Assembly: GCF_949628215.1 (NCBI RefSeq) | Contig: NC_134280.1 | Span: 50,990,621-51,054,620, forward strand | Length of the DNA stretch: 64,000 nt | From: Phalacrocorax aristotelis | Taxonomy: Eukaryota > Chordata > Aves > Suliformes > Phalacrocoracidae | Reading direction: 5' to 3' | In this document: piece after piece, positions 17,993 to 56,517 of the stretch | Position numbering within the stretch: the stretch's first letter is position 1 | How the letters are laid out: every line of letters begins with the position of its first letter | Notes under the pieces: generated by a model | Databases searched by the model: none | Told to the model about the DNA's origin: nothing | The model's input: only the letters and a program-made list of their open reading frames with translations | Made by a program: the position numbers and the translations under genes

Positions 17993-20900
17993 TCAGTCTA
18001 TCTGCATGTTACACTGCTCGATGAGCTCGAAGAGGCTGAAGGAGTCGGAGAGCTGCAGGCTGACGGTGCCACTGTCAAGGGAGGAGGCTCCCTCCCGCAG
18101 CACCTGCTCATACCAATACTCGCAGAACTTGGGTACCAGCTGCAGCAGCAAACCATCAGGGTTATGGGAAGGGCTAGGGGAAGCTGACTGATGTGGCTGC
18201 AATGCCCTGCATGGCCCCGTCCTCCTGGAGCAGAGGAAGGAGGGGTGCAGGGCACTTCCCCCCAGCCCCTGAGGGTCCCCATCCCTGGGCAGCTGCCTCC
18301 CACTCCATCCTGCCCAGCCCCTAAGGGTCCCCTGACCCAGGCAGCTGCCCCCCGTCTAGGGTGGCCCTCCCTGGACTCATGGCCACTGAGGTTTCCCTCC
18401 CAGCCGCATGCCCCTGGTATTTTCCCTACTCCCCAAGAGTTCCCCTCCCTGGGCACCTAGCCCTGCTCCCATCCCTGAAGGTCCCAGTGCCTGCATCCCC
18501 ACTGGTCTCCAAGGGTCCCCTTCCCCTGTCACTCAGTTCCCCCATCTTGCCCAGCCCCCAAGGTATCCCTTCCTCGGGTACCCAGATCCCCATCTGCTCC
18601 AGACCCTGAGGGTCTCCCTCCTCGGGCTCTCAAACCCCCAACTCCACTGGATGCCGAGGGTCTCCCTTCTTGCGCACCCAGACACTCATCTCCCCTGACC
18701 TCTGAGGGTCTCCCTCCCCAGAACGTGATGAGCCCTTATCTCCCCTGTACCCCAAGGGTGCCCCTCCCCAGGCACCCTGGCTGATGAGAGTCCCCCTCCT
18801 TGGGCACCCAGCCCACACTTCCCCCCAGCCCCTGAGGGTCCCCCTTCTTGGGCACCCAGACCGCAGTTGTCCCCCTCCTCAGGCACCCAGAGCCCCATCT
18901 CCCACAGACTTCCAGGGTCCCCCTCCTCAGGCGCCCAGACCCCCACTATCCCCTGGTCCCCAAGAGTCTCTCCCTCCCTGGACAGTAGTGGGGCAGTGGT
19001 GGGTGTTGGCCCCCGCACCTTGACCAGGATGAGCTTAGAGTCCTTGGGCTTGGCCTTGGAGAAGGACTGCCCGAAGCAGAGGTAGATGGTGAAGTCAGGG
19101 GACCGCTGCCTTTGGCCATTGCGGAAGTCCCTCAGCTCTGCGAGGGGAGACAGGGCTTAGTTTTGGGGTGAGCCTGGGGGGGACACAGAGGGGCTGGGAG
19201 GGTTCAGATGCTTGTGACATCCTGGAGCTGGCTTCCATGAGCCCCAAAACCAGGATGGGGGTGGAGGAAACGGGGGACAAGACACCCCTGCCTACCTGTG
19301 CAAAACTCACTGAAGTCAAAGATGGGGGTTTCCTGGTCCCGGCAGAGCGGGTCGGGTGGTGGGTGCCCGACACCCTCGAGCTGCTGGGACAGGGCCCAGA
19401 AGACCTTGCACTTCTTCAGGCGGGTGGCAAAGAGCTTACCAGTGCGTTGCTCCAGCTGCAGCCCTGCGCTGCCCAGCAGCTCCTCGGTGAAGCGTCGCTG
19501 CTTGCTATCGGCCAGCTCGGCGGGGCTGGGGAAGCGCACCAGGCGCCCAGGGCGCAGGGCCACCGCCGGGTCTGAGGGCTGGTATGCCAACAGGCACTGG
19601 CTGCCCCTCACCTCCTCCTGGTGGAAGAGCTTCCCTCGGTAGTAGATGCTGATGTCCAGGATGCGGATGAGGGCATCTGCACCAGACAGTGATCAGCAGC
19701 AGCATCTGCCAAACCCAAACACTCCCCCTCCTCAAAACACTCCCCCCCCCCAGCGTTAATGACTATTAATAACCATATATGCTATTTTTATTACTAACTA
19801 TAATAATTATTTATAGCTACTCATAATTAACCCCTTTACCTGTGTTATCCTCTGGTGGTGGTGGTGCAGGGCTGGCAGTGGAGGCGAAAAGCATTGCCTC
19901 CCCTGGGGATGTCATGGGGACTGTGACCTCCGGCGGATGGCATGGCAGTGCCATGGCCCCTGAGGCAGGAGGCAGGCAGCGTCAGCATGAAAATTTATGG
20001 TGCAGTGAGGTGGGGTTGCTTTGGCATGGGGTGCACGTGGCAGCACCCCACCTCTTCCCACCCTGCCCCGTTATGGCGTTCCCATGCCCAGGACTGGATC
20101 CTGCCCCACAGCACCCACCTTGCTCCTCCAGCAGCATGGAGTCCGGGGACCTGTAGGTGCCCAAGGCGGGCTGCTCCGCCGTGGGCACCCATTGCTGATA
20201 TGCCACTGAGGGGAGGCAGTTGCTTTGGCTGGGGTCTGGGTGAGGCTGGAGCAGGGTGGCCTGGTGGGGAGCATCCTCTGCAGAGAAATCACCAGTGGGA
20301 TGGGGGTAGAGGTCATCCACCCATGGTGCCATCCACCCTGCAACCTGCAAGCAGGGCCAGCTCACCTGCAGGCGCCCAGGATGGGGTCGGGGAGCCAAGG
20401 TTGCGGGAAGAGATGTCACACTGCTGCAGCACCCACTGCAGCATCTCCAGGCCCTCCAGCATCGGGGGCTGAGCGGGGTTGGTGCTGCCTGAGGTGGGGC
20501 ACAGTGGTTGGGAAGTCTCACAACCCCAAAACCAGCCACGGCTGAGCCTACCAGGATGCCCCACAAAAAATTGGGGGATCAGCACCTACCTGTGAGGGTG
20601 ATTTCTGGAGCCACATCTTGGGGGTCGAGCTCTGCCTGCAAAGGGAAGTAGAATGGGGTCTTACCACTTTGGACGGGGGGCACCAAGCCTCCCCCGCCCC
20701 ATGTTTTGATCGGGTGCTGGACTCCATCTCAGGAGCACCCCAAGAACATAGAGGTGCAATGTCTGAGCAGCAGCAGCAGGGACATTCCCCCAGAGCCCAC
20801 TGTGCCCGCTCTGGTACCTGTGTCTGCTGATGCAGTGGCTGCTGTTCCACCACAGGGTCAGGGCTGCTGAAATCTCCCTCCTTGCCATGACAGAGGACAT

Positions 20901-22063
20901 CTGGAAGGACAGCAACGTGAGCAGAATGCCCTGAGATAGCCCACCCCACGAACACAGGCCCCCCTATGGGGACAGGCTCACCTGAGGCAATGGCAAAAAC
21001 TTTGTGTGGGTCATCACCAGACTTGGAGCGGTCCTCCAGCAGCACAAACATCCGTGTGCTCCTCAGGGCACAGCGGAAGTTGGTCTTCCACTTGGCCGGG
21101 TCCTCGGGGCACCCCTCATATCGCCCACTCGCCATTGCCCAGGCCTAGGGGGGTGTGCGTGCGTGCACACGCGTGTGTGTGTGGAGGGGGTGAGTGAACA
21201 TGGGGACCTTGGCTCCATAAGCATGGAGGTTTTAGGGATGCCTGGTCTCTACACCCACTCTCCAATTCCCACATCCCACCCACGCTGATGAACCTTGGCT
21301 CACCACCAGTGACCTCCCCCATCCCACCCACCTTGACGACCCCCGGCTCACCACCAGTGACCCCCCCCCCATCCCATCCACCTTGACGACCCCCAGCTCA
21401 CCACCAGTGACCCCCCCACATCCCACCCACCTTGACGACCCCCAGCTCACCACCAGTGACACCCCCCCCATCCCACCCACCTTGACGACCCCCAGCTCAC
21501 CACCAGTGACCCCCCCCATCCCACCCACCTTGACGACCCCCAGCTCACCACCAGTGACACCCCCCCCCCATCCCACCCACCTTGACGACCCCCAGCTCAC
21601 CACCAGTGACCCCCCCCCCATCCCACCCACCTTGACGACTCCCGGCTCACCACCGGTGAACCCCCATCCCACCCACCTTGATGACCCCCAGCTCACCACC
21701 AGTGACCCCCCCCCCCCATCCCACCCACCTTGACGACCCCCGGCTCACCACCAGTGACCCCCCGCACCCCACCCACCTTGAAGATCTCCAGATCGCTGCT
21801 GGTGACATCTTTCCTAGCGTTGTGCTTCCAGGGGACGCGGAAGATGCTGCGGCCCGGGTCAGTCCAGCACAGCCCCTGGTAGCTCCCGCTGCTGATGGCG
21901 TTCACCAGCCAGGGTCCGAACCGCAGCTTCTGGGGCTCCCTGCGGGCGCGGGGCCGTCACCACGCGGACCGGGGCCACCCGGGGACGGCGACCGGGGGTG
22001 GGGGGGGCCCACGGGCCAGAGAGGCCGTGGTGCTGCTTACCCCTCGCCCTGCAGCGCTGCCAT
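17993..22063 (-). CDS. IRF7: Interferon regulatory factor 7
   Basis: Eleven coding exons on the minus strand: 22041-22063, 21777-21939, 20982-21144, 20818-20900, 20590-20635, 20366-20488, 20119-20277, 19840-19959, 19296-19676, 19019-19137 and 17993-18139 (1527 nt, 508 residues, stop TGA at 17993-17995). All junctions are GT-AG and in phase. Residues ~8-116 are the IRF DNA-binding domain with its five tryptophans (FGPW, GLCW, RVPW, AWAM, KWKT). Exons 4-8 encode a proline- and glutamine-rich linker with activation and autoinhibitory roles in this family. Exons 9-11 hold the IRF-association domain (from about 295) and a C-terminal serine cluster (EGASSLDSGTVSLQLSDSFS) of the kind phosphorylated by TBK1/IKK-epsilon. 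IRF7 turns on type I interferon genes after nucleic-acid sensing. Birds lack a separate IRF3, so this gene covers both roles (established knowledge). Introns are 81-182 bases except introns 2 and 10, which hold minisatellites. Confidence 0.97.
18237..18985. repeat. Degenerate minisatellite in IRF7 intron 10
   Basis: Tandem imperfect units of roughly 55-60 bases repeat a core like CCTGAGGGTCCCCCTCC followed by TGGGCACCCAG, about a dozen times. The array fills most of the 879-base intron 10. The IRF7 coding strand is G-rich here. No coding potential beyond the repeat is seen. Confidence 0.8.
19742..19835 (-). other. AT-rich island with poly(A) signal in IRF7 intron 8
   Basis: A stretch of about 75 bases is almost pure A/T inside an otherwise GC-rich gene. 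On the IRF7 strand it contains AATAAA (plus coordinates 19787-19792), followed downstream by a G-run and GT-rich sequence, the layout of a cleavage and polyadenylation site. Whether it is used is unknown. Confidence 0.5.
21267..21776. repeat. Minisatellite in IRF7 intron 2, unit 46-52 bases
   Basis: About ten tandem units run from roughly 21267 up to the exon 2 boundary. Each has CCCACCCACCTTGACGACC, then CAGCTCACCACCAGTGAC and a C-run of variable length that accounts for the length differences. On the IRF7 strand every intact unit contains GTCAAG followed by GTGGGT, nearly the same as the true exon 2 donor TTCAAG/GTGGGT at 21777/21776. The long open frames across it on both strands are repeat translations and not genes. 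Confidence 0.92.
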
Positions 22064-22139: not shown

Positions 22140-22147
22140 CCTTTTAT
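22140..22147 (-). promoter_or_regulatory. TATA-like element of IRF7 (ATAAAAGG)
   Basis: Minus-strand ATAAAAGG lies about 80 bases upstream of the IRF7 start codon, which would place transcription start near 22110 and give a 5' UTR of about 50 bases. Confidence 0.5.
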
Positions 22148-22169
22148 CCGCCCCCCGCTACCCGCGCCC

Positions 22170-22184
22170 AGTTTCCTGGAAACT
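22170..22184. promoter_or_regulatory. GAS-type STAT site in IRF7 promoter
   Basis: AGTTTCCTGGAAACT is a palindrome around one central base and contains TTCCTGGAA, a TTCN3GAA gamma-activated sequence for STAT factors. It lies between the TATA-like box and the ISRE. Confidence 0.55.
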
Positions 22185-22190
22185 ACGTCA
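22184..22190. promoter_or_regulatory. CRE/ATF-like site in IRF7 promoter
   Basis: TACGTCA on the plus strand (TGACGTA on the IRF7 strand) abuts the GAS palindrome. It resembles an ATF/CREB half-palindrome. Evidence is motif and position only. Confidence 0.4.
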
Positions 22191-22197
22191 CCATTCC

Positions 22198-22210
22198 GAA
22201 AGTGAAAGTG
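22198..22210. promoter_or_regulatory. ISRE / IRF-binding element in IRF7 promoter
   Basis: GAAAGTGAAAGTG fits the GAAANNGAAAN IRF-binding consensus and resembles the IRF elements of the interferon-beta enhancer. About 135 bases upstream of the IRF7 ATG, it would make IRF7 interferon-inducible and self-activating, as in other vertebrates (inference from motif and known biology). Confidence 0.65.

Positions 22211-27316: not shown

Positions 27317-56517
<29,201 letters not shown>

Follow-up and report, generated by a model that had tools for sequence, protein, structure and literature searches.

Most of intron 2 of the IRF7 gene of Phalacrocorax aristotelis is occupied by one tandem array, which includes the splice junction itself (21268-21781, minus strand) and whose unit joins a copy of the end of exon 2 to a copy of the start of the intron. 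In our assessment, this array is most probably a junction-derived intronic minisatellite of the exon-stuttering kind, i.e., a by-product of repeat instability that the gene tolerates.

As for the gene itself, the minus strand of the window (the whole 64-kb stretch of DNA that was analysed) carries a complete IRF7, whose eleven coding exons, placed by us and joined using the donor at 21777, encode an uninterrupted 508 residues in an exon model with first-donor splicing. When spliced, exons 1-3 match the Pfam family IRF (E=2.4e-36), as well as the DNA-binding domains of the solved IRF7 and IRF3 structures. Exon 2 (21777-21939, minus strand) encodes the first half of this domain, as supported by the Pfam match and the 508-residue coding sequence, and its 3' end (21777) serves as the array's copy zero. 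It is followed in the gene model by a 632-nt intron 2 (21145-21776, minus strand) and by exon 3 (20982-21144, minus strand), which begins AWAMASGR and, according to the gene model and the solved-structure match, encodes the second half of the domain.

TRF and the alignment of the units together define a single junction-derived array with a period of ~50 bp, 10.4 copies and 89% matches. The true exon 2 donor at 21777 reads AAG/GTGGGT (the slash marks the exon-intron border), and this 9-mer recurs unchanged at eight decoys, with exons that would end at 21729, 21677, 21631, 21581, 21529, 21481, 21431 and 21332. A ninth decoy, at 21382, is weakened to AAG/GTGGAT, and the sole difference in the one at 21677 lies upstream of the core (ATCAAG). 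There is also a tenth, degenerate copy at 21284 (minus strand) that has lost its donor (AGC/GTGGGT), so that the true junction is followed by ten junction copies, nine of them donor-grade. A first-pass annotation of this DNA had described a tandem array of near-perfect copies of the exon 2 donor and listed ten exon ends, the true one and nine decoys, all of which prove to be right. Absent from it were the exon-tail half of the unit, with 21 of 30 bases shared, and a second, weaker donor-like series, GTG/GTGAGC, present in ten copies on the minus strand (21749, 21697, 21651, 21601, 21549, 21501, 21451, 21402, 21352 and 21304). Scoring of the donors, which the first-pass annotation had proposed, gives 5.7 for the true donor and for each of the eight decoys with the identical 9-mer, which is why they score alike, and 3.9 for the second series. 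Similarly, the pairing energy with U1 is -11.0 kcal/mol for the true donor and each of the eight exact decoys. The donor frequencies and U1 sequence behind these values are general background knowledge. In the 1.28-Gb genome (one assembly), the array has one identical locus, at ~51 Mb on contig C5.

The unit of the array consists of 30 nt of exon tail and 16-22 nt of intron start. Its exonic half corresponds to the last 30 nt of exon 2 (GTCACC...TTCAAG, encoding VTSSDLEIFK; 21777-21806, minus strand). When this tail (GTCACCAGCAGCGATCTGGAGATCTTCAAG) is set against the unit consensus (GTCACTGGTGGTGAGCTGGGGGTCGTCAAG), 21 of 30 bases are identical, ungapped and in register, and 16 of 25 remain identical once the five junction bases are left out. 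Shuffling the exon bases, with those junction bases excluded, yields a match as good with p 3.5e-5 in one run and 1e-5 in a repeat run, and 25-mers of the window outside the array that match the unit equally well number seven among 63,324 on the minus strand and four on the plus strand. With junction bases included, local alignment of the exon 2 tail with intron 2 scores 33, compared to a maximum of 29 for shuffled sequences (0 of 300 shuffles as good). Among the 20 IRF7 exon edges compared with their own introns, the end of exon 2 alone beats all 300 shuffles, the runner-up being the start of exon 3 against intron 2, which is matched by 14 of 300; in this comparison the edges beyond exon 4 were shifted by one base, which leaves the exon 2 result unaffected. 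Moreover, 14 identical bases span the exact junction, TCAAG/GTGGGTGGG, and the homology between exon and unit crosses the border, from -30 to about +9.

On these alignments, the array is shown to have begun as a duplication across the exon 2/intron 2 splice junction: the exon-tail homology is in register and continues into the junction core, which argues for such a start, with intronic copies that have since drifted and been homogenised together. This agrees with the first-pass annotation, in which the array was thought to have grown from the exon-intron junction; the donor core points this way, as do the unit's exonic half and other genes with like architecture (see below). In the mechanism we propose, a segment over the boundary, with ~30 nt of exon and 16-22 nt of intron, would have been duplicated in tandem, after which the intronic copies would have expanded and homogenised among themselves while G and T accumulated in their exon half. 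Each of the nine differences between exon and unit is a change to G or T. We set aside the idea that the donor core has been specially protected relative to the exon half since duplication, because A-to-G and C-to-T changes account for seven of these nine, and just three bases of the core are A or C. A degenerate G-rich 23/48-bp minisatellite in IRF7 intron 10 (18539-18939) was considered as a second junction array and rejected, since 213 of 300 shuffles were as good for the donor side and 130 of 300 for the acceptor side.

A different origin, in which an ordinary G-rich minisatellite has come to resemble the junction by G/T-rich convergence, is almost certainly not the explanation. Eleven other places in the genome do match the IRF7 array at 65-68%, and a G-rich array on contig C18 (L015) contains AAGGTGGGT with no exon recognised by eye. 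Convergence would nevertheless have to produce the 14 identical bases across the exact junction and the in-register homology to the exon tail, and it sits poorly with sister genes in which the exon copy is plain, a MUC1-like gene matching at 20 of 20 bases and a gene on contig C6 at 34 of 35.

The junction-derived array has a published counterpart. Hron et al. (2026, Genome Biol Evol, PMC12954441) describe sequence stuttering in chicken, including exon stuttering, in which a lateral part of an exon and its donor or acceptor are copied through the adjacent intron. The article reports 236 such introns in 115 chicken genes, with 190 of the 236 on dot chromosomes (a dot location is not required), ranges of 1-44 copies and 20-187 bp of exon length, and variable length in 183 of 192 typed introns. 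In the portion of the article drawn on here, potential alternative transcripts are noted and no splicing test is reported, and its main text does not name IRF7; titles and abstract beginnings among the literature matches listed likewise contained no description of an IRF7 intron array. The IRF7 array shares several features with it: in GC-rich sequence of a bird, a lateral part of a coding exon and its donor have been copied tandemly into the adjacent intron from the exon border, and its 10 copies and 30 bp of exon fall inside the ranges given in that article. There are also differences, which weigh against assigning IRF7 to this class. The array lies on a 71.7-Mb contig (C5), unlike the 190 of 236 introns found on dot chromosomes, and its exon half has diverged to 70% identity, although the donor core is kept in eight of the nine donor-grade copies. 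This divergence matters for the published screen (PMC12954441), which uses blastn-short and requires a match of 20 nt or more with a score no lower than 42.1 bits. We re-ran it with each exon against its adjacent intron on the plus strand, the MUC1-like exon being cut to 100 nt and the introns of the APBB-like and C6 genes being partial. The best match of IRF7 exon 2 to intron 2 is 7 nt and 14.4 bits, below both 42.1 and the shuffled maximum of 18.3. Because it falls short of this threshold, the IRF7 array is, as read from its sequence, a diverged variant of exon stuttering and not a screened member of it.

The 1.28-Gb genome was then scanned with patterns in which a donor word occurs three times at spaced intervals, with reversed patterns as controls. 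Donor-word matches exceeded reversed-control matches in two of the five pattern sets (13 versus 0 and at least 153 versus 18), did not clearly do so in two others (3 versus 6 and 5 versus 4) and were far fewer in one (at least 91 versus 3,069). Since these totals do not beat the controls everywhere, the evidence rests on individual loci. We describe 15 array loci besides IRF7: L002, which came from a similarity match, and L015, L020/L055, L024, L056, L063 and L066-L074, which came from donor patterns, L073 being the flank of an array only. These loci are part of the pattern matches and the words searched resembled known donors, a strong sample bias because of which we claim no rate. A coding exon is recognisable as the source in five of the 15, a sixth locus is a candidate, and inspection by eye recognised none in the other nine.

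One of these loci is the ITGA5 region (L055 4228-4560 and 6669-8343, contig C26, minus strand), which contains an array of the transmembrane exon and an array of an exon further upstream. Its identity is supported by a match to integrin alpha-5 in the PDB (E 2e-23), and the spliced protein aligns without gaps to solved integrin across the junction. Downstream of the transmembrane exon lie ~5 junction copies reading ..GGCCTCTACAAG/GTGGGT, of which three have the exact donor 9-mer; upstream of it are 71-bp acceptor-side copies (L055 4709-5070), which were excluded from the donor-copy, frame and quadruplex analyses and from the donor-anchored shuffle test. The upstream exon (..PTSPYTL) is followed by ~30 units of 55 bp with GTCAGT donors, 28 of them exact donor copies; it has no Pfam match and is assigned to ITGA5 by position and orientation only. 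In an HMGN1-like gene (L056 1850-3326, contig C1, plus strand; Pfam HMG14_17, E 4e-10), a 33-nt exon is followed by 34 exact donor-junction copies with a 42-bp unit, and all 34 extra donors shift the frame. A literature search for multiple mRNAs from chicken HMG-14a found no match. Three exon-junction copies with the exact donor occur in the MUC1-like gene (L069 275-465, contig C25, plus strand), a locus picked up by luck via an opposite-strand donor word, and three in the C6 gene (L067 about 759-955, contig C6, plus strand), where use of any of the three extra donors would leave the frame intact and open. An APBB-like gene (L072 about 700-1080, contig C1, plus strand) has three exon copies by BLASTn, the best of 26 nt at 96% and 44.1 bits, and one of its four exact donor 9-mers, at +91, ends such a copy. 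The names MUC1-like and APBB-like are putative and reflect the look of the encoded proteins. Finally, L063 is a first-exon-like candidate (1377-1768, contig C20, minus strand), with seven 54-bp units in a GC-rich region, each with an ATG (MARSA) and a GTGAGT donor.

When shuffling is anchored on the donor, p is 4.5e-4 and 4e-5 for the two integrin introns, 1.8e-4 for the HMGN1-like gene, 2.4e-4 for the MUC1-like gene and <1e-5 for the C6 gene; in the APBB-like gene it is 0.15, so that this gene fails the test, which counts against placing it in the class. In the BLASTn screen, the upstream exon of the ITGA5 region, the APBB-like gene and the C6 gene score above 42.1 bits. Several others fall below this threshold, as IRF7 does: the HMGN1-like gene (28.2), the MUC1-like gene (40.1), the ITGA5 transmembrane exon (40.1) and the acceptor-side copies (30.2). 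Screens by exon similarity can therefore miss junction arrays whose exon half has drifted, and a donor-anchored search can find such arrays.

What would follow if a decoy were used depends on which one it is. Decoy 1 (exon end 21729, minus strand) lies exactly 48 nt beyond the true donor, in frame and open through exon 4, as the first-pass annotation had it, and its use would insert 16 residues, VGGVRGVTGGEPGVVK, between FK and AWA. The signature of the IRF family is reported as [DE]-x(2)-[LIVF]-F-[KRQ]-x-[WR]-A (PMC2885996), and the insert falls within it, breaking F-[KRQ]-x-[WR]-A. We therefore infer that the DNA-binding domain would be disrupted and that the protein made from decoy 1 would lack normal DNA binding. 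As for decoys 2-9 (exon ends 21677, 21631, 21581, 21529, 21481, 21431, 21382 and 21332, minus strand), their offsets are not multiples of 3, in line with the frame shift noted in the first-pass annotation. Yet the frame hardly matters, because each of them reads, before its own donor, the same premature TGA in the exon 2 frame (21695-21693, minus strand). This stop, also read by the degenerate copy and by a retained intron 2, yields an 89-residue product. Nine IRF7 exon junctions lie downstream of it, so that transcripts using decoys 2-9 would probably be subject to nonsense-mediated decay. Since decoys 2-9 and the retained intron share one TGA, a change in array copy number would alter how many donors compete, not the kind of product made.

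These predictions bear on whether the array regulates IRF7. The first-pass annotation suggested that copy number could tune how much functional IRF7 is made. In such a scheme, the decoys could compete with the true donor for U1, array length setting the fraction of unproductive IRF7 mRNA and hence the antiviral set-point. Such a role is conceivable, with eight decoys sharing the 9-mer, score and U1 energy of the true donor and decoys 2-9 all leading to a premature stop, but we consider it unlikely. One precedent is the minisatellite of human IFI6 (6-16), also interferon-induced, which gives multiple donors and in which two downstream repeat units are reportedly used (Turri et al. 1995, cited in PMC4526556). 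IRF7 resembles it in having tandem units with splice donors downstream of the first in an interferon-induced gene; it differs in that use of the downstream donors is reported for IFI6, whereas those of IRF7 are known from sequence alone. Another precedent is retention of IRF7 intron 4, countered by BUD13, which reportedly ends in decay and lowers IRF7 (Frankiw et al. 2019, via the review PMC8306335). There, as would be the case here, whether an IRF7 transcript is productive or decays depends on how one intron is spliced, but the intron and mechanism are different, the species is not this bird, and the part of the review concerned describes no array.

Several observations speak against regulation. 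Across nine donor-grade units and 44 aligned columns, G runs left aside, 9 of 396 cells deviate from the consensus, and the donor bases show no detectable excess of conservation over the other bases of the unit (1 of 81 cells versus 8 of 315; Fisher p 0.69). Furthermore, the in-frame decoy 1 would break the IRF signature, the outcome is identical whichever of decoys 2-9 is used, and unrelated genes have the same structure, which points to a mutational process rather than a regulator of IRF7. We regard as improbable the proposal that intron 2 is a copy-number rheostat, in which array length varies between birds, decoys send transcripts to decay and length shifts the interferon set-point. Were it true, a splice-junction minisatellite would be a heritable regulator of the antiviral response.

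The G-rich array might also aid splicing if G runs or RNA quadruplexes downstream of the true donor favoured its choice and quadruplexes masked most decoys; we think this very unlikely. A canonical quadruplex motif starts from donor base +3 in six of the eight exact decoys and is absent from the true donor. Best folds that allow quadruplexes, computed in 100- and 160-nt contexts, predict that all nine decoys have donor bases in a quadruplex or stem, with seven of nine bases free at the true donor. However, a G-run jitter test indicates that lengthening the run behind the true donor by one G would give this donor the motif as well and remove the contrast, which makes the model fragile. Long G runs are error-prone in assemblies. 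In addition, bases +1 to +3 of the true donor are predicted to be paired in the shorter fold context, decoy donors are predicted to be about as free as the true donor when quadruplexes are switched off, and four of the seven donor-side introns analysed lack a sense-strand quadruplex motif.

We thus return to the tolerated junction minisatellite. The 5'-most junction keeps an intact coding sequence and donor, and the intact reading frame suggests that this first donor is the one normally used. Duplications of the junction would be tolerated because this copy still makes the protein. Decoy use, if any, would be unproductive; decoy 1 keeps the frame too, however, so frame alone does not exclude its use. 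By analogy with the published exon-stuttering class, array length probably varies between individuals.

These arrays are natural experiments in splice-site choice, with up to 35 identical 9-base donors per pre-mRNA in the HMGN1-like gene. Judged by protein frames, the first of many identical donors appears normally to win, and the score of the 9-base site cannot account for this: the choice among equal donors cannot be read from the donor itself. Candidate explanations are order of synthesis, exon definition and flanking elements. As for IRF7, its product is a transcription factor with an antiviral role, so that any use of decoys would be expected to have consequences that can be measured.

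Upstream of the ATG at 22063, the minus strand carries TTTCACTTTC (22196-22210), which we take to be ISRE-like, and TTCCAGGAA, which we take to be GAS-like (together 22173-22210), immediately upstream of a TATA-like element (22150-22141). As read from sequence motifs, this cluster at 22141-22210 is consistent with an inducible promoter. A few hundred bases past the promoter, the sense strand of the array (21268-21781, minus strand) is very G-rich, with a GC skew of 0.67. Six of its units read GAGCTGGGGGT, which we take to resemble immunoglobulin switch repeats, and the array is a possible R-loop region. Elsewhere in the window, open frames on the plus strand (51636-52043 and 52665-53063) look by eye like pieces of a non-LTR retrotransposon reverse transcriptase.
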